Source: a virus
Reading direction: 5' to 3' (one strand)
DNA length: 52,666 nt
Virus record (IMG/VR): IMGVR_UViG_3300007276_000066
Coordinates: 1-52,666 of that record
The position numbers and the translations under genes are program-made. Of the stretch, positions 2,042-52,666 are shown piece after piece; within the stretch, counting starts at the first letter, position 1; each line of letters begins with the position of its first letter. The notes beneath the pieces are model-generated. The model was not told the DNA's origin. It worked only from the letters and a program-made list of their open reading frames with translations, and searched no databases.

Positions 2042-2080
2042 AAGTCACCGTTTAAAATTGTTTGATTAAGTTGATACAAT

Positions 2081-2111
2081 GTAATATACGCTTACTTATT
2101 CAACCTGTCAA
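2081..2111 (-). promoter_or_regulatory. promoter with embedded operator (one mismatch)
   Basis: Minus strand TTGACA (2111-2106), 17-bp spacer, TATATT (2088-2083). The palindrome GTAAT-ATACG-CTTAC at 2081-2095 covers the -10 element and part of the spacer. A repressor bound there would block RNA polymerase. The -35 overlaps the end of the upstream gene. Confidence 0.75.
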
Positions 2112-2910
2112 CAACTATTTTTGACTCTTGAATAAAACCACTAAAATCCTTTTTTGCTGAGCCCTTAGCGTATAAGCCAACAATAAAAGGTTGATTGATT
2201 AAATCGTGTTTTTTTGCGTCCAAAAATCGCAGATCGGTGTCGTCCCCGTTTATAACTGGTAAGCCCTTAAAAGTCTCTGGAATCTCACCGCGAAAAACTA
2301 CGCTTGCGCCTACTGAGTGCTCCCTCACTGCATTCAATACGCTTACAGAATACTTTACACTTGCCCCCGAATAGCTTGCAGTTAAAGCGTAATTTTTTGG
2401 CGCTCTATCTAGCATGTGCATATTCTTAGTGTAGTCGTAAAATTGTAATTCTGGGAAGTGATCAAAAATGTTTTGATTTTTGCCATTCATTAAAAATGGC
2501 TTATTTGTATAATCTACGTCGCTTGTTCCATTTAGTCGAACCGCTGGCGTCATGCCTTTATTTTTTGCCTTTACAATCAAGCTCTCAATTTCTTTATATA
2601 AAGCAATCAAGAAATCATTTTGCTTGGTTATTAATGAAACCGATTTGTTGAGGCGCGATTGCTGAACACTGTTAAATGACCCGCGCCCCGCGCTATATAG
2701 GCAAGCTTCAGCGCATCCCGCTGTTTTTGCATTGGCACATAATGTCCCTTTTTTCATTAGGTGTTTAAATGCTATCTGATCGGGTGCAAGGTAACATATA
2801 CCAGTCAAATAATTGAGCTTTTCGCCCTTTACCGTTTTACTATCTGAACCGATAGAAAGCAGACTATTTAGTCCAGCATTCCTTAAAGCTTGTTTTTTTG
2901 TGATAGTCAA
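2092..2910 (-). CDS. cysteine-motif phage protein, 272 aa (GP88-like?)
   Basis: Contains LTGICYLAPDQ near the N-terminus and a cysteine cluster LCANAKTAGCAEACLYSAG around residues 57-75, followed by a basic QSRLNKS segment. The spacing recalls the gene-product-88 family of actinophages and relatives, whose role is unknown; this assignment is from memory and weak. The start is a TTG at 2910, supported by the leader AACGGTGAAATTT directly before it. Two operator-bearing promoters lie upstream (2949-2979 and 3040-3068). Confidence 0.75.
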   Translation of the reverse strand: MTITKKQALRNAGLNSLLSIGSDSKTVKGEKLNYLTGICYLAPDQIAFKHLMKKGTLCANAKTAGCAEACLYSAGRGSFNSVQQSRLNKSVSLITKQNDFLIALYKEIESLIVKAKNKGMTPAVRLNGTSDVDYTNKPFLMNGKNQNIFDHFPELQFYDYTKNMHMLDRAPKNYALTASYSGASVKYSVSVLNAVREHSVGASVVFRGEIPETFKGLPVINGDDTDLRFLDAKKHDLINQPFIVGLYAKGSAKKDFSGFIQESKIVVDRLNK

Positions 2911-2948
2911 AATTTCACCGTTTTGATTAGTTGATTTAGTTGATGGGT

Positions 2949-2979
2949 GTAATTTACGCTTACCTATTCAACCTGTCAA
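2949..2979 (-). promoter_or_regulatory. promoter with embedded operator (one mismatch)
   Basis: Minus strand TTGACA (2979-2974), 17-bp spacer starting GGTTGAA, TAAATT (2956-2951). GTAAT-TTACG-CTTAC at 2949-2963 overlaps the -10. Nearly the same cassette as at 2081-2111. It lies 39 bp upstream of the TTG start at 2910. Confidence 0.75.
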
Positions 2980-3039
2980 CAACTATTTCATCTATTTTAA
3001 AAATGGCTTGTTTGCTTAGCCCATAAGGAGCGGGGGCGC

Positions 3040-3068
3040 GTATACAGTAAGTTTTTCTTACTTGTCAA
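3040..3068 (-). promoter_or_regulatory. second promoter with a perfect operator in the spacer
   Basis: Minus strand TTGACA (3068-3063), then a spacer containing the perfect palindrome GTAAG-N5-CTTAC (3047-3061), then GTATAC at 3045-3040 (17-bp spacer) or TATACG (18-bp). It points at the gene starting at 2910. Confidence 0.75.
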
Positions 3069-3125
3069 TAGGCAATAGACCGAAAGTGAGATCTATTTTA
3101 ATCGGTGTAATGGTGGCTCTAAAAG

Positions 3126-3140
3126 GTAATAATCGCTTAC
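3126..3140. promoter_or_regulatory. operator-like palindrome (one mismatch)
   Basis: GTAAT-AATCG-CTTAC in DNA without a supported gene. A TTGACA at about 3175-3180 on the minus strand may belong to a promoter upstream of it. The stretch 3141-3375 holds a weak relative of the TTGACAGGTTGAA promoter (TTGACGGGTTGAA at about 3238-3250) but no gene I can support. Confidence 0.55.
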
Positions 3141-3375
3141 AACGGCACTGAGTCGGTTTTAGCTACTTTTGGCTATTGTCAAGCGTTTTATTACTTTATT
3201 TCACCTTATTTTTGAGCCTAATTCCATTCAGGCATAATTCAACCCGTCAAGCATTATTTCATTTATTTTATTTGAGCTGTATATAAACACAGTACCGGAC
3301 CATAGTGCTGTATGGATGAACAGTATGTCGATAAAAAACACCGAAATCGACACATGCCACCAAAATACACACACA

Positions 3376-9894: not shown

Positions 9895-11435
9895 GATCTA
9901 GCTCCTGAATAATTTGATTTCGCTTTTCTAATATTCAAATGTTGAATGTACTTTTTGAAATTCGCGTCTGGAGCAATCTCTGGATGGTTCTTAATTTCTG
10001 GGAGGTTCGGCCATACTCCAGTTCGCTCTCTGTATTTGTGAGCTGCGGCTCCTGACTTCATTCCTTTTGACTCACACCAAGCCTTCATCATTCCATAAAA
10101 GGCTGCTTTCTCATCCACCGGTGTTTTCTTGTTCCAAGCCTTTGAGTCAGCATCCTCGGTTCTCACTATCTCAACCAAGTTAGCTTCCTTGACCGGTATA
10201 TCTGCGCCCCTCGGCACTGATTCGTGATCACACATAGGGCATTTGCGCTGAGCCTTAAATACATGACCGCAATCACCGCACTTAATCTCAGCAGGCTCCT
10301 TGTTTTCACCGTCTTTTTTCTTCTTAAGGTCAGTAATACTTACCTCTGCGTCCAGCGTCCAAGGCATTTCGTCATCAACGAAGCCGTGCTCCATGACGAC
10401 TCCGGCATGATCAATAACATAGGCTAGATCCTTGCTGTCATGAGGCCGTAGAACCCTTCCTACGGTCTGCATGTATCGAACCAAACTCTTTGTTGGCTGA
10501 GCAACAACAGCGACCTGTAGTGATGGAATGTCTAATCCGTAGCTGGCAATATAAACATTGCACAACACCATTGTTTCTCCGCTCGAAACTCGACCAAGAA
10601 TGTCTTTCCTGTCATCGGTCTCGGTATCGCTGTCCATGTGCTCTGCAGGTATTCCGGCGGCAAGAAACTCCTCGCAGACATGACGGCTATGAGCCTTATT
10701 CACGCAAAACACAACAGTCTGCATTCCATCAGCAAGCCTCTTCCAGTTGTGGACAATCCCACCAATCAATTTAGGATCGTCCATAACTTTCGCTAACTGC
10801 TTCTCGTTATAATCTCCGCTAGTCTTACCGATGCTAACACCAGACAGGTCAGGCTCATCTGCGGCATAGTATTTAACAGGACAGAGATAACCCTGCTCGG
10901 TCATTTCCTTCACGGATAGCGGAGAAAGGCAAAGGTCATCGTAGAATATACCTAGTCCCAACCCGCCAGCCCTAGCCGGAGTTGCCGTAAGCCCCAGAAT
11001 GATTGCGCCGCCCTTGTGGTAGCTCTCTAGGATGGCAATTCTTGACTCTGATGTTGACAGATGAGCCTCATCAACAATCACCAGATCCGCCTCAGGCAGG
11101 TCTATGCCTTTTTTCATACATCGGTGATGAAGCGTATCGAAGCTGCAAACTTGGCATCGTGACGGCCAGATTCGCTCTCCCGCCATTATCATGCCTGCAG
11201 CGATACCGTTGGCAGAGAATACCTTGTGGGCTTGATAGATAAGCTCTCGTCTAGGGGCCAAGAAAACAACCCTTTTGTTTTTTGCTAGAGACCCAAATAT
11301 CATCATCATTGCTATCACGGTCTTACCGCCACCGGTTGCAAGCTGAACAATAATCTTCCTAAAGCCCTTACCAATGGATTCTCTTGCGTTGGTAACGGTC
11401 TGTGTTTGATATCCCCTTGGAGTAATGTTTTTCAT
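9891..11435 (-). CDS. DEAD/DEAH-box superfamily 2 DNA helicase
   Basis: Motif I ATGGGKT (33-39), motif II DEAH (122-125), motif III LTATPAR (149-155), motif VI QTVGRVLRP (323-331), and a C-terminal zinc ribbon CGDC with CPMC (386-402). It is a UvsW/RAD25-like SF2 enzyme of the kind found beside primases in temperate phages and likely helps open or remodel the replication fork. Length 514 aa is normal. Overlaps the initiator gene by 4 bp. Confidence 0.88.
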   Translation of the reverse strand: MKNITPRGYQTQTVTNARESIGKGFRKIIVQLATGGGKTVIAMMMIFGSLAKNKRVVFLAPRRELIYQAHKVFSANGIAAGMIMAGERIWPSRCQVCSFDTLHHRCMKKGIDLPEADLVIVDEAHLSTSESRIAILESYHKGGAIILGLTATPARAGGLGLGIFYDDLCLSPLSVKEMTEQGYLCPVKYYAADEPDLSGVSIGKTSGDYNEKQLAKVMDDPKLIGGIVHNWKRLADGMQTVVFCVNKAHSRHVCEEFLAAGIPAEHMDSDTETDDRKDILGRVSSGETMVLCNVYIASYGLDIPSLQVAVVAQPTKSLVRYMQTVGRVLRPHDSKDLAYVIDHAGVVMEHGFVDDEMPWTLDAEVSITDLKKKKDGENKEPAEIKCGDCGHVFKAQRKCPMCDHESVPRGADIPVKEANLVEIVRTEDADSKAWNKKTPVDEKAAFYGMMKAWCESKGMKSGAAAHKYRERTGVWPNLPEIKNHPEIAPDANFKKYIQHLNIRKAKSNYSGARS

Positions 11436-12109: not shown

Positions 12110-12163
12110 GAAGCTTCCTTCTAGAGTTGTTTCGCCCTGTTAAGGCTTGCAAAAATTGCCTTA

Positions 12164-12178
12164 GTATGCAACTCTTAC
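12164..12178. promoter_or_regulatory. operator-like palindrome (one mismatch), leftward leader
   Basis: GTATG-CAACT-CTTAC, 55 bp upstream of the replication initiator start and downstream of a likely leftward promoter (TATAAA on the minus strand near 12193-12198). Next to it TAAGGC and GCCTTA (12141-12162) form a small stem-loop in the leader. Confidence 0.55.
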
Positions 12179-12275
12179 CTTAGCAATCAAATTTATACAT
12201 TGATTCAAATAGGTCAAAGAACCCAAATGAATCACGTTTTATATATCAAATTAAAACGCTATTTGCGTCAACGAA

Positions 12276-12290
12276 GTAATAATAACTTAC
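12276..12290. promoter_or_regulatory. operator-like palindrome (one mismatch) before the repressor gene
   Basis: GTAAT-AATAA-CTTAC, 45 bp upstream of the repressor ATG. On the minus strand TTGACG-17-TGATAT starts 6 bp to its left, pointing at the replication operon. On the plus strand TTGCGT and TTACAT flank it at about promoter distance. A repressor here could control both directions, including its own synthesis. A further CTTAC half-site lies at 12310-12314. Confidence 0.6.
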
Positions 12291-12335
12291 ATTCGCGATG
12301 ACAGCAAGACTTACTTTTAAAAAAGGAGCATAGCC

Positions 12336-12734
12336 ATGTCTAAGTTACATCAAAAGATTAAAGAGGCACGAGCAAGGTCCGGTCTAACACAGGGAGATAT
12401 AGCCAAGGCTTGCGGCCTAACTAGGAACGCTGTGACTTTATGGGAGTCGAGCAATCCAACTCGAAGAACCGCTCCCCAAATCCGCGAGATTAACATTCTG
12501 TGCAAAATGACAGGAGCCCCGAGGGACTGGCTTTTGTCAGATGAGAGCGGACTTAACGATGCTTGGGCTGTAGGCAGCAACTCTAAACTAAGCCCTGCCG
12601 AGGAAGCGTTGATTGTCACTTTCCGGCTATGCAGTCCGACCAAACAGGCCGCGATAATTGCGTTTCTTGAGTTCACCGCCAGCACTAAAGCGCCTGCATC
12701 GCAAGGATCAACCACTGAGTCCCGATTGGGTTAA
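12336..12734 (+). CDS. HTH repressor-type regulator without protease domain, 132 aa
   Basis: XRE-family helix-turn-helix at about residues 17-37 (LTQGDIAKACGLTRNAVTLW), with the usual APRDWLLSDESG end of the DNA-binding domain. The rest (about 75 residues) has no S24 peptidase motifs, so RecA-driven self-cleavage as in lambda CI is not expected. Good ribosome site AAAAGGAG. It is the only obvious repressor-type gene in the window and the natural candidate to bind the dispersed GTAAG-N5-CTTAC sites. It could instead be a Cro-like protein. Confidence 0.8.
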   Translation: MSKLHQKIKEARARSGLTQGDIAKACGLTRNAVTLWESSNPTRRTAPQIREINILCKMTGAPRDWLLSDESGLNDAWAVGSNSKLSPAEEALIVTFRLCSPTKQAAIIAFLEFTASTKAPASQGSTTESRLG

Positions 12735-12968: not shown

Positions 12969-13037
12969 GTAAGTAATTATTAATTACTTACGTAAGATAG
13001 TTATACTTTCTCATATTCTTGTGATAGTATTACTTAC
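12969..13037. promoter_or_regulatory. operator cluster of the rightward promoter region
   Basis: Perfect 11-bp inverted repeat GTAAGTAATTA / TAATTACTTAC around one T (12969-12991), abutting another GTAAG (12992-12996), then a CTTAC at 13033-13037. The half-sites match the dispersed operators but the spacings differ (13 bp instead of 5). TATACT at 13004-13009 may be the -10 of the rightward promoter. It separates the leftward gene at 12900 from the rightward recombination operon. Confidence 0.7.
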
Positions 13038-13076
13038 CTATTGGGAATCAACCCAAACTAACAACGGTATTTAATT

Positions 13077-13313
13077 ATGCAAGTAAGAATTACAAGTCCG
13101 GACTGCCTAGCTGGTCGATTCAAGACTGGGGACATCGCAGAAGTGATTAAACACCACCCGAGATTAACAGAGTTGCGTAAGTGGAACTATCTTGTTGAGT
13201 TCCCAAATCCGCGTTTTTGCGGTACTCAGCCATTAGGTCGTCGCCACCTATTTACATCAAGCCAAGTCGAGAAGATTGGTAGTGCAGTTTCAATACAGGG
13301 GCAGACACTATGA
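13077..13313 (+). CDS. hypothetical protein, 78 aa, first gene of the rightward operon
   Basis: Beta-rich small protein (MQVRITSPDCLAGRFKTG, YLVEFPNPRFCG) without a known family. It follows the operator cluster directly and so is the first gene expressed from the rightward promoter. Its stop overlaps the next start (ATGA). Confidence 0.65.
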   Translation: MQVRITSPDCLAGRFKTGDIAEVIKHHPRLTELRKWNYLVEFPNPRFCGTQPLGRRHLFTSSQVEKIGSAVSIQGQTL

Positions 13314-16402: not shown

Positions 16403-16698
16403 CATCACCTTACCTGACACAAACTGACGCTATGACCTATGCCTGTAAGAAGGATCGCGGGTCATTTATTGCATGGGCCAATGAGAATCGATTGACTGGA
16501 AGAAAAGTGGGCGGTAACATGTTGTACGTTAAAGCTGAACTGATAAATGCAATCGAGGCCGGATGTCAACCATTACCAAAAGAGGTGAATCGTGGGTTCT
16601 CAACTGGTCGGAAGGTGGCAAGCAATATCGTAGATCCCTTGGCAGGGTGGCGAAAGCAGAAGCCGAGAAAGCCCGTTACTCAAAGGAGCTTGAACTAA
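16399..16698 (+). CDS. excisionase-like small DNA-binding protein
   Basis: The first 55 residues (LTQTDAMTYACKKDRGSFIA, NRLTGRKVGGNMLYVKAELI) read like a winged-helix excisionase or MerR-type HTH_17 domain, with a wing near GGNMLYV. It sits directly upstream of the integrase, the usual place for xis. GTG start at 16399. The last 45 residues overlap the integrase start by 136 bp, so expression of the two genes may compete. Confidence 0.6.
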   Translation: MTSPYLTQTDAMTYACKKDRGSFIAWANENRLTGRKVGGNMLYVKAELINAIEAGCQPLPKEVNRGFSTGRKVASNIVDPLAGWRKQKPRKPVTQRSLN

Positions 16699-17522
16699 GT
16701 GAACCTAACATTAATAGCGCACCATATTTCGACTATTACGCAGCCGAATATCTGGACTGGTATTCAGAGCAATACCCCGCAAGTCTTGAGCGATGCAGAC
16801 AGATTATCATTAGCCACCTTGCGCCATTCTTTGGAGACAGAGTTCTCTCGGATATCGGAGGAAGGCTGGTCAAAGATTATCAACTTACACGAAGGCAAGC
16901 TGCCACCGGAACGTACCTTAAAGAGTTCCGAACTCTTAAAGCCATGCTTAATCGTGCAGTCGAATGGGAGGTTATTGCAGAGAACCCCATATCACACATT
17001 AAGCCTCCAAAAGACAGCAACAGCAAGCCCCCACATTTCTACAGTGTGGAGGAGCTGGTCAAGATTTACGATGCGGCCTACCAGTTCCCTTGCCAATGGA
17101 AGTTCATGGCTAACACCGGAATTCGTTTAGGCGAAGCAATCAATTTCAGGAAGAGCAGAGATGTCAAAGAAAACTCCATACACATTATCAGCACCGAAGG
17201 TGCGCGTACCAAGTCTGGACTTTGGCGAGAAATCCCTTTGTTTGACGGTGCCAGAGTGGCCCTTGATGGAGTTGAGGAAAGATTGTTCAGCTCACACCCC
17301 AAGTCCGTCAGTCGTGCTTTCAGGAACGATCTTCTTCGGTCAGAAGTCGGTGGAGGCTCTCTTCACAGCCTTAGACACACTTTTATCAGCCACCTCTTCA
17401 TGTCCGGAAAGTTCTCAGCAGTAGAAATTCAGCATTGGGCTGGGCATTCCAGCCTAACAACAACCCAACGATACGCACATCACATGCCGCGCAAAGTTGA
17501 CACAGGAGCATTATCATTATGA
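16563..17522 (+). CDS. int: tyrosine-family phage integrase
   Basis: 319 aa with N-terminal arm-binding region, SAM-like core-binding domain (about 55-150) and catalytic domain: R188 (TGIRLGE), K217, H268-xx-R271 (HSLRHTF), H295 (GHSS) and nucleophile Y304 (TQRYAHH). It catalyses integration between attP and the host attB. attP lies about 370 bp downstream (17894-17944). The start at 16563 is inside the excisionase-like gene. Confidence 0.93.
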   Translation: MSTITKRGESWVLNWSEGGKQYRRSLGRVAKAEAEKARYSKELELSEPNINSAPYFDYYAAEYLDWYSEQYPASLERCRQIIISHLAPFFGDRVLSDIGGRLVKDYQLTRRQAATGTYLKEFRTLKAMLNRAVEWEVIAENPISHIKPPKDSNSKPPHFYSVEELVKIYDAAYQFPCQWKFMANTGIRLGEAINFRKSRDVKENSIHIISTEGARTKSGLWREIPLFDGARVALDGVEERLFSSHPKSVSRAFRNDLLRSEVGGGSLHSLRHTFISHLFMSGKFSAVEIQHWAGHSSLTTTQRYAHHMPRKVDTGALSL

Positions 17523-19294: not shown

Positions 19295-19570
19295 ATGAGT
19301 AATTACAAACCAGCATCAGCGACAATCGACAGGCATCCACTTGTCCACTCAGTCCACTTCCATGAGACCTACCTTATTGACGGCGGAAGTCGAGGTTATG
19401 ACGACTACAAGTACGAGGTGCTTTTAAAGAAGGGCTTTAATTACGAGGGTGCTCACTCAAAAAACTTTTTGAATGTTTCTGATTTTTTGAAACATTCCCC
19501 ATCCATCAAAAGATGCACCGCCGAAACCTGCGAATGTGATGGGAGTGGCGTTGATTGGGGTGAGTTGTAA
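19295..19570 (+). CDS. hypothetical protein, 91 aa
   Basis: Contains RHPLVHSVHFHETYLIDGG and a C-terminal CTAETCECDGSG cluster that could bind a metal. Start set by the leader AAACGGTGAAACAGA. Single-gene transcript between the two copies of the 55-bp repeat. Unknown function. Confidence 0.6.
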   Translation: MSNYKPASATIDRHPLVHSVHFHETYLIDGGSRGYDDYKYEVLLKKGFNYEGAHSKNFLNVSDFLKHSPSIKRCTAETCECDGSGVDWGEL

Positions 19571-19677: not shown

Positions 19678-20037
19678 ATGAGACAGATTACATTAGAAGT
19701 TCCTTCTTCAAAGCATCACCTAGCAATTCATCGAGTCGATCTGCCAGATCACGCTCGAGTTGAGCATGGAATATCAAGACCCGTAACAGACTGGTTATCA
19801 GTCGAGCTTTCGCACAAACCAGCCGAGCCACTTTTCTGGATCGGCAAGACCGATGCCAGCGATAAGGAATGGCTTATTTGGTACATGGTGTCAGAAAATA
19901 AACCGCTTAAAATGCACGATAGTTTTGGCAAGAACCAAAAGGAAGCAATTCAGATCGGCTTTCGGGATGCGGCAGAATATTTGTCAGATAAATGGAATGC
20001 TCGTGAAACCACTACATTAACGGACGAAACAAAATGA
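19678..20037 (+). CDS. hypothetical protein, 119 aa
   Basis: Alternating strands and helices (WLSVELSHKPAEPLFWIG, WLIWYMVSENKPLKMHD), no recognised domain. Leader AACAAAACGGTGAAATAAA immediately before the ATG. First of a run of six small genes joined by short overlaps. Confidence 0.65.
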   Translation: MRQITLEVPSSKHHLAIHRVDLPDHARVEHGISRPVTDWLSVELSHKPAEPLFWIGKTDASDKEWLIWYMVSENKPLKMHDSFGKNQKEAIQIGFRDAAEYLSDKWNARETTTLTDETK

Positions 20038-20879: not shown

Positions 20880-21220
20880 GTCCTGAAATTAAATTTAGAC
20901 AAAAGATGCTCAAGCCGGTCCGCGGAAACACCATGAATGATAAGTATACGCTGGTTAAGTGTGTCGCTGAGATACGCAGGAACTCGACAGGTGAGGTGCG
21001 TCTTTACAGAACAGATGAGCCGATATTTGAAGGTGACGCTGAGATATATACATTCAACTGGTCTGACAACAACAACTCTTGTGACTGCAATAGGCGCATT
21101 TTCTTTAACAGCGTGGCCGACATTGAGACGCCTTTTGGCGAAGAGTGCTCAGACGGCCTTTACTCAGTAAATCTCTATACTGCCAGTGATGGTAATTACT
21201 ACTACCGAGAGTTTGAGTGA
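20876..21220 (+). CDS. hypothetical protein, 114 aa
   Basis: Mostly beta strands with several cysteines (NNNSCDCNRRIF, EECSDGLYSVNLYTA). ATG at 20876 overlaps the upstream stop; an in-frame ATG at 20933 could be a shorter start. Last rightward gene; it converges with the A1-like gene, with only 2 bp between the stops. Confidence 0.6.
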   Translation: MSPEIKFRQKMLKPVRGNTMNDKYTLVKCVAEIRRNSTGEVRLYRTDEPIFEGDAEIYTFNWSDNNNSCDCNRRIFFNSVADIETPFGEECSDGLYSVNLYTASDGNYYYREFE

Positions 21221-21222
21221 GG

Positions 21223-22764
21223 TTACGGATAGTCCGCTAAAGTCTTACCATTAATATGATTGATTAGTGCTCGTTTGCCGTTCGGGAAGACGAGACAATC
21301 AGTCAGCATCCATGTGCTGTATCCCTGAGCGTACTCCATTAAATCAGTGCTTGTACCCATCTGCCAGCACCCCTTCTCAATACAGGGTGTATGGCTGTGA
21401 CCGATGATAGTTTTGCTCTGAGTCTTAGCTAATCCTTTCGCGCTCCCTCTGCTGCCGTTCTGACCCTTATCACCATGCTGTGATATGTCTATTCCGTGAA
21501 GTGTGTGGCGACTGTTGCGGCTTAAAAACTTGTGGCTAGCATTGCATCCCCATTCACCGAAACACACCTCTAATGCGCTTAGAGACGTTCCCAGCATTTT
21601 ATAACTAAGCCAGCCGTGAAACTTTATGTTGTATGGATCTTCTTTTGGGTTGAATCTCATCCACCATTGGTCGAGGTGGTCATTATGATTGCTTCCGACG
21701 ATAAGGTTTTCAGTGTCTTTTCCCAACCGCTCAATGTAATCGATTGATAACCGCACCTCTTTTTCAACACTTACCTTGCCAAGTAATGCTTGCTCAGCCC
21801 TTTCTCTCAGCGTTGAGTGATGGCTTCCTATTTCTTGATTGTGTAAATCGTGCCAAACCTGCGTCTCAGGATTAACCCTATCTATCAACCTTAACTTGCT
21901 CTTGGTGATCTTGGGTATCTCATGACTAACATGCGAATCCCCATGAACGATATCTGCCTGACCATCCGACTTACCATCCTCTGTCCAGTATTCATCCAGA
22001 AAGTGAAAGCCGTCACCATCCCAACCTAATTGAGTGTGATGGAATAGATCCCCGACCCGCTTTATGTATACGGCGTAAACGGTATGATAAAAGTTAGCCT
22101 TGCCTCCAACGTCAGACGAGGTGTATTGAGACCTATTGCATGATCCAGTAGTCATCATCACCTTGGGCATTTCGTCCTTTGGTGTGCCTACCAGCTCCAT
22201 TGCCAGTTGAGGGTGTCCATACACGACACTCTTGTGTCCGCCTAGAGCCTGCTTGCCCGATAACGGATTAACGCTAGTTGCATTGAGACGAACAGCACTA
22301 ACCATCAAGTTCTTGCCTAAGCTAAGATCTTCGGTGAGCGCGTAAGGGTAAATTGCACTGTCCCAGAAGTAACCTTTAGTCGTGTGCATTGCGTTCGGAT
22401 TCTGGTACCGAACAGGAATTACCAGAAGCTGACCATTCCTAGCTTCAATGAACTTCTTGAGAGCGGCTAAGAACGGTTTAATGACCGGAGAATTGTTAGT
22501 CAAGGAGGTGATAACAAAATCCTTACACTTCCTTGCCTCTCTAATGTCTAGCGATGACGGACATTCAATATTCTTATGTGTTGAATACTTATCGTTATGT
22601 GCCGCCAGCTCGATGCCAAGAAGATCCTCAGTCCAGCGCCGGTTCCTTCTCATAGTTCGCTCATCACCGGCAGGTATCCCAGCCTTTTTATGAGCGTCCT
22701 TTAACGAGGATGATTCGTCCCACGCGCCAGCTAATAAGTTGGCTCTTTTTAGCGATATTCCCAT
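21223..22764 (-). CDS. metallophosphoesterase resembling phage T5 A1 protein
   Basis: 513 aa with calcineurin-type motifs in order: GDSHV, WHDLHN, GSNHND, SQHGD and IGHSHTP, which bind two metal ions. Size and layout recall the A1 pre-early protein of T5 and relatives, linked to host DNA degradation and to second-step DNA transfer. The identification is from memory. N-terminal 60 residues look like a HTH (LLAGAWDESSSLKDAHKKAG). A perfect operator lies 10 bp upstream of the ATG. No clear ribosome site is present. Confidence 0.75.
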   Translation of the reverse strand: MGISLKRANLLAGAWDESSSLKDAHKKAGIPAGDERTMRRNRRWTEDLLGIELAAHNDKYSTHKNIECPSSLDIREARKCKDFVITSLTNNSPVIKPFLAALKKFIEARNGQLLVIPVRYQNPNAMHTTKGYFWDSAIYPYALTEDLSLGKNLMVSAVRLNATSVNPLSGKQALGGHKSVVYGHPQLAMELVGTPKDEMPKVMMTTGSCNRSQYTSSDVGGKANFYHTVYAVYIKRVGDLFHHTQLGWDGDGFHFLDEYWTEDGKSDGQADIVHGDSHVSHEIPKITKSKLRLIDRVNPETQVWHDLHNQEIGSHHSTLRERAEQALLGKVSVEKEVRLSIDYIERLGKDTENLIVGSNHNDHLDQWWMRFNPKEDPYNIKFHGWLSYKMLGTSLSALEVCFGEWGCNASHKFLSRNSRHTLHGIDISQHGDKGQNGSRGSAKGLAKTQSKTIIGHSHTPCIEKGCWQMGTSTDLMEYAQGYSTWMLTDCLVFPNGKRALINHINGKTLADYP

Positions 22765-22767
22765 TCA

Positions 22768-22788
22768 GGTATAGTAAGTAAAACTTAC
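22768..22788 (-). promoter_or_regulatory. perfect operator with possible -10 directly at the A1-like start
   Basis: GTAAG-TAAAA-CTTAC at 22774-22788. On the minus strand TATACC (22773-22768) follows it and ends 3 nt before the ATG, with CTTTAA 16 bp upstream. If that is the true -10, transcription would begin at or inside the start codon, so either a leaderless message or another promoter must be used. Confidence 0.65.
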
Positions 22789-22811
22789 CTTAAAGCCTGC
22801 ACGAAATTGCA

Positions 22812-24514: not shown

Positions 24515-24725
24515 TCTCTGCCTCCCTATCTTCCTTGATGTACTGCTCTCTTGATTCTGTTTTGGCGTTCGCTTGGTTCTCCAAAGCTTCTATAGTTGTA
24601 TTCAATTCAGCCGTGATAGCTAACCTTTGCCAATACCCGTATCCCCCGACTATAGCTATACTTAATAGAGCTACAGCCGCCATTTGCGCCAACCGATTGG
24701 CGAGAATCTGCTTTATAATGTTCAT
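24444..24725 (-). CDS. inner-membrane spanin subunit (Rz-like)
   Basis: One N-terminal membrane segment (about 13-31, MAAVALLSIAIVGGYGYW) followed by a periplasmic coiled coil (TTIEALENQANAKTESRE). 93 aa is shorter than lambda Rz (153 aa). It overlaps the lipoprotein gene, and its ATG overlaps the stop of the upstream gene (ATGA). Confidence 0.78.
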   Translation of the reverse strand: MNIIKQILANRLAQMAAVALLSIAIVGGYGYWQRLAITAELNTTIEALENQANAKTESREQYIKEDREAENAIKNSIEDGSVKSFVDYWNSSN

Positions 24726-25171
24726 GATTTTGGAACCTCTGTAATCTTTAATTTAAACTCGTCATAAACTTTCATTTCAGTCCAGAACTCTCTAAATGCT
24801 TGGCCCGAAGTCACCCCGCGTAGCTGGTCGTGGTCTGCGCCAATCATGTCGTTTATCAGAATGCAACCCTCAGTGTTTCGCTCAAAGTTCCCTATATGAA
24901 ATAGAATGTAAGTTCGGCCATCGACACCTGTAACCTCAAAGGTCATGTACCCCTTCTCGTTGTACATTCTTTTTCGGCAAATATATTCACCAGATGGAAT
25001 GCAGCTAACATTCTCGGAGTTTCCCCTCCAAGGCAGTTCAATTGTGAATAGCTTATTCTGGGAAGGTAGGGTCAATAGACCAACAGTTACACCATCCTCA
25101 AGAATGCGCTGCAATGAGACCACCGGAACTTCCTTGAATTTTTTTAGCATCCTTGCCATCAAATCTTTCAT
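24722..25171 (-). CDS. DUF5675-type protein, candidate endolysin, 149 aa
   Basis: Carries LFHIGNFERNTEGCILIND, which I recognise as the core of DUF5675; HxGN followed by a GC pair is reminiscent of the His and Cys of L,D-transpeptidases. It is directly upstream of, and overlapping with, the spanin genes, and no standard lysozyme or amidase is visible in the window. A peptidoglycan-cleaving role is therefore inferred from context, not proved. No signal peptide. Confidence 0.6.
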   Translation of the reverse strand: MKDLMARMLKKFKEVPVVSLQRILEDGVTVGLLTLPSQNKLFTIELPWRGNSENVSCIPSGEYICRKRMYNEKGYMTFEVTGVDGRTYILFHIGNFERNTEGCILINDMIGADHDQLRGVTSGQAFREFWTEMKVYDEFKLKITEVPKS

Positions 25172-39232: not shown

Positions 39233-39255
39233 ATCAATCACCGTTTACCGTTAAA

Positions 39256-39270
39256 GTAAGAAAATCTTAC
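39256..39270. promoter_or_regulatory. perfect operator inside the tail operon
   Basis: GTAAG-AAAAT-CTTAC between the major tail protein and the tail chaperone genes, 24 bp upstream of the chaperone start. No good -35/-10 pair is visible around it, so it may act as a roadblock site rather than a promoter operator. TCAAACAGGTAAG is shared with the site at 51251. Confidence 0.75.
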
Positions 39271-39291
39271 CTGTTTGACCGTAGAAAGATT

Positions 39292-41790: not shown

Positions 41791-41796
41791 TAAAGA

Positions 41797-42774
41797 TTAA
41801 GCGTTGCTTACTTTAACGATTGCAGTAGGGCGTGTGCAGATATGCAGAGGGTTGGATTGAGTCTCCACAATCCAGCCTTTGCCGCCCTCTTTTTCCCAGC
41901 CTTTAGAGTACATTGGCAAGCCCATTGTGTTAACGGTCTCGTTGTAGTCAGCAGGAGCGTAATAAGATTGAAACAGTCCGCTAACGCCTTCTGGAACCGC
42001 ATACGCAGTGTTATCTTCAATTTTCACAAGAGAAGTACCTTCGTACTCTTCAAAGATAGCGCCGCCATAAGAAAACCCAGCGCGAACGTCATCACGGTTC
42101 ATGCCGCTATCCATATAGCGTGAATACTGCTCTTTCACTTCAGCGTTCTCAATGAATGCGTCAAAGAAAGTAGGTGAGCACAAGAAGCGAACTCCCTTAA
42201 AGCCTACACCGCCCAATGCAGTCTTGATCTGTCGCTTAATTGCAACAACATCAGTACGAGGAGTGGTTGTAGCTACAAGAATGTCAGCCGTTGTCTGGCT
42301 CACGCTCATTTCCGTGAAAAGGTTCAACAGTACGCTTGTGCCGTCCGCATCATAAACGATCCCTTTAAGCGCACCCATACGCAAATGCTCTTGGGTGTAC
42401 ATAATGTCGTCGTGATGCTTTTTGACCTTCTTCGCCAATTTAGCTGAAACTGCCTCAGTCTCGCTTTGCGTTCCGAATGCGCGAACATTCTGGAGTTCTG
42501 ACGCTTGGACGCTGGAGCGTTGAGGAAGGTGTATTGTGCTGAAGTTGCGAGACTTGTACTTACTGATCTCGCGCTGTTTTGGCTCTGAGCCACGCGCAGC
42601 AGCAGGAACCAACTCAATAGAATCAGCGCCGAAATCCAAGCGAACATCAGTTGTATCAATGCCCTCATTTGAGAAATAGCCCAACTCAGTAATTCGCTGC
42701 GGAATGTACTCAATATCCTGTACGGCGGCGGTTAGTGTTTCAAGCTCGAAAACGTCCGTGTTAAAATTTGCCAT
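41797..42774 (-). CDS. major capsid protein, lambda gpE family
   Basis: 325 aa, close to lambda gpE (341 aa), with the family N-terminus FELETLTAAVQDIEYIPQRI and the LRMGALKGIVYDADGT and GGVGFKGVRFLCSPTFFDAF segments. It forms the HK97-fold shell. Preceded by the decoration protein gene as in lambda. Confidence 0.9.
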   Translation of the reverse strand: MANFNTDVFELETLTAAVQDIEYIPQRITELGYFSNEGIDTTDVRLDFGADSIELVPAAARGSEPKQREISKYKSRNFSTIHLPQRSSVQASELQNVRAFGTQSETEAVSAKLAKKVKKHHDDIMYTQEHLRMGALKGIVYDADGTSVLLNLFTEMSVSQTTADILVATTTPRTDVVAIKRQIKTALGGVGFKGVRFLCSPTFFDAFIENAEVKEQYSRYMDSGMNRDDVRAGFSYGGAIFEEYEGTSLVKIEDNTAYAVPEGVSGLFQSYYAPADYNETVNTMGLPMYSKGWEKEGGKGWIVETQSNPLHICTRPTAIVKVSNA

Positions 42775-49325: not shown

Positions 49326-49382
49326 GAGTGCAAATCCCCATTTAAGTTAATTAAAGAATGCGTATTTATAGCATTACGCTGG

Positions 49383-49413
49383 GTAAGATATACTTACCTA
49401 GACGCCCTGTCAA
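49383..49413 (-). promoter_or_regulatory. strong sigma70 promoter covered by a perfect operator
   Basis: Minus strand TTGACA (49413-49408), 17-bp spacer, TATCTT (49390-49385). The perfect palindrome GTAAG-ATATA-CTTAC (49383-49397) overlaps the -10 and spacer. It points at the small genes and terminase below, so it is the best candidate for a repressed structural-gene promoter. Confidence 0.85.
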
Positions 49414-52653: not shown

Positions 52654-52666
52654 ATCAGTATGCGCC
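52654..52666. repeat. 13-bp terminal direct repeat, right copy
   Basis: Exact copy of bases 1-13. See the left copy. Confidence 0.8.

Follow-up and report, generated by a model that had tools for sequence, protein, structure and literature searches.

A T5 A1-family metallophosphoesterase gene behind an apparent repressor operator in a temperate phage genome

The A1 protein of bacteriophage T5 is essential to the phage (PMC8108384) and its biochemical activity is not agreed. It is needed for host DNA degradation (PMC13250531), a role as an RNA polymerase factor has been proposed (PMC3556154), and a survey of jumbo phages predicted nucleotide immune signals as the target of T5 A1 orthologs (PMC7824862). 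A requirement in second-step transfer, besides that in host DNA degradation, is a hallmark of A1. In T5 the gene is pre-early, and the terminal repeat that carries it also encodes A2 and dmp. A1 homologs outside the T5-like phages have been published for phiJL001 and phiCbK (PMC3556154), and are also carried by KASIA, XacN1 and other non-T5 phages (PMC3556154, PMC8541194); those of phiCbK, KASIA and XacN1 were described as parts of the replication modules of phages that are large or virulent, with no mention of a repressor site. Here we analyse an A1-family gene in the temperate phage genome IMGVR_UViG_3300007276_000066 (an IMG/VR record of 52,666 bp, hereafter the window). Compared with T5 A1, its product has a different N-terminal module, and an operator stands at its start codon. 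Within the known family, this apparent lysogenic repression is what sets the window gene apart.

Judged by sequence, assignment of the gene to the T5 A1 family is firm. The 513-residue product matches PHROG 1745 ("DNA transfer protein", the T5 A1 family) over residues 62-508 (E = 1.3e-97), and direct alignment with T5 A1 gave 27% identity over 478 columns (E = 7e-37), spanning the whole core; identity to the XacN1 homolog is 37%. No Pfam or NCBIfam model covers the protein, and a sequence search of solved structures with it returned no meaningful match. The metallophosphoesterase motif set (GDxH, HD, NH, H and GHxH) is complete, as it is in T5 A1. Across 54 aligned sequences, namely the window protein and relatives taken from viral contigs, residues D276, H278, D306, N359, H360, H430, H456 and H458 are invariant and fit the metallophosphoesterase signature, and the catalytic residues are the most conserved portion of the protein. 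The sole departure in the motif set is N309, a position occupied by aspartate in 52 of the 54 sequences.

The confident AlphaFold (AF2) model of the protein (mean predicted local distance difference test score, pLDDT, 91.9; predicted template modelling score 0.85) suggests a three-helix module resembling a helix-turn-helix (HTH) at approximately residues 5-49 (helices 5-15, 21-28 and 35-49), a weakly predicted linker (50-73) and a metallophosphoesterase core (74-513). Foldseek searches of the PDB returned the calcineurin-like phosphoesterases Vps29, GpdQ and LpxH (best E = 2.7e-3, probability 0.94). Among BFVD viral models, two proteins of similar length ranked highest (5.5e-47 and 1.4e-43), followed by many phage metallophosphoesterases. 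No likeness to SbcD/Mre11-type nucleases was detected beyond the general fold: neither an Mre11 nor an SbcD chain is among the top 50 PDB matches, and in BFVD the SbcD-like proteins come after general phosphoesterases. The modelled fold therefore supports membership of the calcineurin-like superfamily and does not point to one particular nuclease.

The N-termini of A1 relatives vary, being HTH-like, Fis-type HTH (PF02954 above cut-off in contig L047) or zinc-ribbon-like, the last class resting on weak Pfam matches and CxxC pairs judged by eye. HTH and zinc-ribbon folds are typical DNA-binding domains. The aligned sequences suggest a family built from a constant enzyme core and a swappable, predicted DNA-binding module.

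The stretch under study (21223-22788) comprises the A1 open reading frame (ORF) and 24 extra bases of the upstream gap, which hold a perfect 6+3+6 inverted repeat, GTAAGT-AAA-ACTTAC (GTAAGT-N3-ACTTAC). The original prediction of a perfect operator 10 bp from the ATG was right about the repeat, which is also the best such site in the genome, and off by one base in the distance (Table 1). With up to three mismatches allowed, 47 related sites occur in the window against 18.8 expected. A palindromic matrix, built iteratively from a set that includes the sites it reports, identifies 24 sites scoring at least 13 bits, compared with 0.55 expected from column-permuted matrices and 0.63 from a second-order Markov model. 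When each site was left out in turn, scores ranged from 11.4 to 23.3 bits, with the A1 site at the top. Intergenic positions account for 18 of the 24 cores, while by the ORF list only ~10% of the window is non-coding (binomial p ~4e-14).

A tyrosine integrase and a probable HTH repressor mark the genome as temperate, and with the intact catalytic residues and the PHROG match they bear out the prediction of an A1-like metallophosphoesterase in such a genome. We infer that the CI-like HTH protein is the probable repressor because three to four operators flank its gene on either side, in the manner of lambda OR and OL. Pfam and PHROG scans detected no S24 peptidase domain in this short protein, and induction via self-cleavage therefore seems unlikely. 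The window also encodes a DnaD-like loader, primase, helicase, NinG, SSB, exonuclease and a lambda-type terminase and portal; a library search of it for known defence families found none. Leftward genes from 12.1 kb run through replication and then, provided that the ends are joined, through terminase, head and tail genes down to A1, while rightward genes from 13.1 kb run through recombination genes, int and small genes. The two blocks meet at A1, and the convergence with the integrase-side accessory genes noted earlier was confirmed: the final plus-strand ORF stops at 21220, leaving 2 bp before the A1 stop codon. Positions 1-13 and 52654-52666 are an identical 13 bp, ATCAGTATGCGCC, and the genome may be closed.

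Table 1. Positions of the A1 gene, its probable regulator, the operator sites and associated features in the window
Feature	Position	Strand	Remarks
A1-family metallophosphoesterase gene, 513 aa	21223..22764	-	ATG start; PHROG 1745, T5 A1 homology
Operator core GTAAGTAAAACTTAC	22774..22788	.	9 bp 5' of A1 ATG; best genome site
Gap between A1 ATG and stop codon of upstream gene, 47 bp	22765..22811	-	Holds operator
480-aa protein, N-terminal hydrophobic helix	22812..24254	-	Directly upstream of A1; 42-43% homologs likewise placed in several phages
HTH CI-like regulator (HTH_3/HTH_31), 132 aa, probable repressor	12336..12734	+	PHROG 8 E 7e-11; PF01381 8e-7; PF13560 1.8e-7
Tyrosine integrase	16563..17522	+	PHROG 1 E 1.2e-47
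Operator cluster, OR-like	12161..12317	.	Sites 12164, 12276, 12300; between repressor and leftward replication genes
Operator cluster, OL-like	12970..13096	.	Sites 12973, 12996, 13023, 13079; start of rightward block
Operators 2081, 2949, 3047, 3126	2078..3143	.	First three on TTGACA-17/18 promoters (- strand)
Late-block operator	39253..39273	.	14 bp 5' of a start codon; without promoter
Late-block operator	41794..41814	.	Over stop codon, 6 bp 5' of next ATG; without -35 TTGACA
Operator upstream of terminase genes	49380..49400	.	Covers -10 of TTGACA-17-TATCTT promoter (- strand)

The start codon of A1 is secure, because an in-frame TGA stands immediately 5' of the ATG and the N-terminus is conserved in relatives, whose alignment begins at residue 3. 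The same evidence rules out an alternative start codon, including the suggestion that the true start lies elsewhere. Neither a Shine-Dalgarno-like sequence nor a -35 element was detected in the 47-bp gap. The original prediction also read an overlapping -10, and hence a separate promoter and a possibly leaderless message, into this site. The hexamers TACTAT and TATACC are indeed present at the operator; no -35 accompanies them, and the best promoter score nearby, 7.5, is within the range common at random positions. A sigma-70 promoter belonging to A1 is unsupported on this basis. With regard to a moron, an accessory gene expressed in the lysogen from a promoter of its own, A1 shows no promoter above background together with a strong operator.

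Elsewhere in the window, several predicted sites sit on convincing promoters. At operators 2081, 2949 and 49383 the site overlies the -10 of a TTGACA-17 promoter, and 3047 occupies the spacer of a further one; the minus-strand -10 elements at 2081, 2949 and 3047 are TATATT, TAAATT and TATACG, respectively. The late-block sites differ: those at 39256, 41797 and 22774 (A1) precede start codons closely, and none has a TTGACA-type -35. Since these sites lack such a -35, a roadblock resembling a stoperator is at least as likely as promoter occlusion. The closest described arrangement is that of cluster A mycobacteriophages such as L5, whose genomes hold more than 20 scattered repressor sites, many of them within short gaps between genes (PMC9283540). 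In a system of the L5 type the bound repressor stops transcript elongation. The predicted repressor-type sites of the window show such dispersal, several of them without a promoter. However, L5 stoperators are asymmetric 13-mers oriented with transcription (PMC9283540), whereas the window sites are 15-bp palindromes, presumably dimer-bound, in a lambda-like genome.

A repeated promoter, TTGTTGACAGGTTGAA, was observed at 1150(-), 2099(-), 2967(-), 18827(+), 19217(+) and 19599(+). An operator lies on the -10 of the copies at 2099 and 2967. The copies at 1150, 19217 and 19599 have none, so the lysogen may express ORFs 777-1094, 19295-19570 and 19678-20037.

A1-type proteins had been taken to belong to virulent T5-like phages, a view too narrow for the distribution of the family. 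By tblastn, family members were found in 1,123 of 50,697 phage records, assigned to Vibrio (367), Salmonella (273), Escherichia (124), Klebsiella (81), Flavobacterium (68), Caulobacter (38) and other genera, and in five plasmids. One of these plasmids is a 54-kb phage-plasmid of Endozoicomonas gorgoniicola (NZ_CP103299), which encodes capsid, terminase and HTH regulators and whose A1-like gene shows 31% identity. Unlike the window, it has plasmid maintenance functions, and its A1 gene is preceded by a Shine-Dalgarno-like AGGAGG and an upstream hairpin and by no such operator. A DUF5675 protein is encoded near A1 both there (L007, 22435-22830) and in the window (24722-25171). The closest IMG/VR relatives are L029 (58%), L017 (57%) and L015, L016, L099 and L101 (57%), followed by a group at 44%; no relative from the close clade was found in GTDB genomes. 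Contig L017 carries an integrase and a CI-like repressor and is a second temperate carrier. An operator common to relatives was sought and rejected, as neither the other A1-bearing loci nor L104 and L105 yielded a comparable set with the window matrix.

A1 ends the tail/lysis gene block, directly after the conserved 480-residue gene, and the order tail genes, 480-residue protein, A1 recurs in relatives: homologs of the 480-residue protein lie directly upstream of A1 in L015, L016, L099, L101 and L029. The window also has a tail-protein stretch in common with L101 (70% identity) and a large terminase with L029 (51%). The 480-residue protein had no match in Pfam or any other library searched and no meaningful match in a sequence search of solved structures, and a search of the 50,697 phage records with one of its homologs returned nothing. 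Its structure model is unusable (pLDDT 39.5), and a nucleoside-hydrolase-like segment in it is a mere impression. In L029, a perfect inverted repeat with 24-bp arms (9904-9994; fold z -7.5) lies between a 457-residue gene and A1. Its arm resembles the start of an 82-residue ORF that relatives carry at this place, which would fit loss of the ORF by inverted duplication.

In L096 and L097 (7606-8598), the latter a contig with an integrase, the A1 slot directly downstream of a 458-residue homolog of the 480-residue gene holds a different protein of 330 residues, with a zinc-ribbon-like stretch and a Metallophos domain (PF00149). Because one zinc-ribbon metallophosphoesterase replaces A1 in this way, phosphoesterase activity is apparently what is selected at the locus. 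No homolog of T5 A2 or dmp was found in the window, which rules out an A1-A2-dmp cassette. This absence and the location of A1 as the last gene of the tail/lysis block both speak against a pre-early role like that in T5. A pre-early locus shared with A2 and dmp is a trait of T5 and not of the whole family, and so bears on T5-like function and not on membership. The location of A1 suggests that its expression is lytic and probably late.

These results support a model, to which we assign a probability of roughly 0.55, in which A1 is a phosphodiesterase of the lytic phase, equipped with a DNA-binding module at its N-terminus, and is kept silent in the lysogen by the repressor of the phage. The HTH-type module would tether the enzyme to DNA, and the calcineurin-like core would hydrolyse phosphodiester bonds, most likely in nucleic acid, so that the host is disabled while the phage grows lytically. 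In lysogens, the CI-like repressor would sit on the palindrome before the ATG and bar transcription of A1, whether by occluding a weak promoter or as a roadblock to polymerases reading on from the tail and lysis genes upstream. Upon induction or lytic infection, loss of the repressor would allow A1 to be made as the last gene of the tail/lysis block. Of this model, the sequence itself establishes the gene, its family and active site, the operator with its genome-wide set, and the order of genes; which protein is the repressor, expression confined to the lytic phase, DNA as the substrate and harm to the host are inferences. A DNA-directed enzyme is favoured because of the DNA-binding modules, the invariant active site and the replacement by a zinc-ribbon metallophosphoesterase. 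Several points weigh against this model. A1 orthologs elsewhere are predicted to act on immune signals (PMC7824862) or RNA polymerase (PMC3556154), the fold match of the model in the PDB is weak (best E = 2.7e-3), and the late-block position differs from the pre-early one in T5. Moreover, no copy of the L017 CI-region palindromes immediately precedes the A1 gene of that contig, and control of A1 by a repressor is thus not a general rule.

How the operator acts allows two readings, both of which we hold tentatively. It is possible, though doubtful, that the site is an ordinary promoter operator and A1 an independently transcribed, perhaps leaderless, early gene: TACTAT ends 6 nt before the ATG, which would place the start site on the A of the start codon, and several other window sites sit on real promoters. 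Set against this are the missing -35, a promoter score inside the random distribution, and the fact that L016 and L101 share the gene order without a comparable site. To much the same tentative degree, the window may represent a lambda-like temperate phage whose roughly two dozen palindromic repressor sites are dispersed and include late-block stoperators that lack a promoter; the strongest site would stand directly before A1, where the bound repressor would act as a roadblock and protect the lysogen from a lethal gene.

The other alternatives concern what the enzyme does, and we consider each of them improbable. An anti-defence phosphodiesterase whose substrates are the second messengers of host immunity, be they cyclic or linear nucleotides, and not the chromosome, would accord with the prediction for T5 A1 orthologs (PMC7824862) and with the nearest solved folds, which are small-molecule phosphoesterases (GpdQ and LpxH) and Vps29. 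This reading is unlikely, as N-terminal HTH or zinc-ribbon modules are hard to reconcile with a soluble signal hydrolase and host DNA degradation needs T5 A1 (PMC13250531). Somewhat less probable still is a transcription modulator, in which the HTH module and core would bind promoters or RNA polymerase to switch phage gene classes, with phosphoesterase activity secondary; conservation is highest at the catalytic residues, and it is another metallophosphoesterase that takes the place of A1 at the same locus. The least probable reading is that A1 is horizontally acquired cargo without a lytic-cycle role, beside an operator by chance. The slot content differs among relatives and A1 converges with accessory genes, but its operator is the best in the genome, the pair it forms with the 480-residue gene is retained across diverged phages, and the active site is intact.

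A temperate-phage A1 with an apparent off switch, and without A2 and dmp, would let the effect of A1 alone on the cell be asked. The substitution at this locus of a different zinc-ribbon metallophosphoesterase points to phosphoesterase activity as the selected function. If the dispersed palindromic operators do block elongation, the stoperator idea would extend beyond the asymmetric sites of mycobacteriophages.
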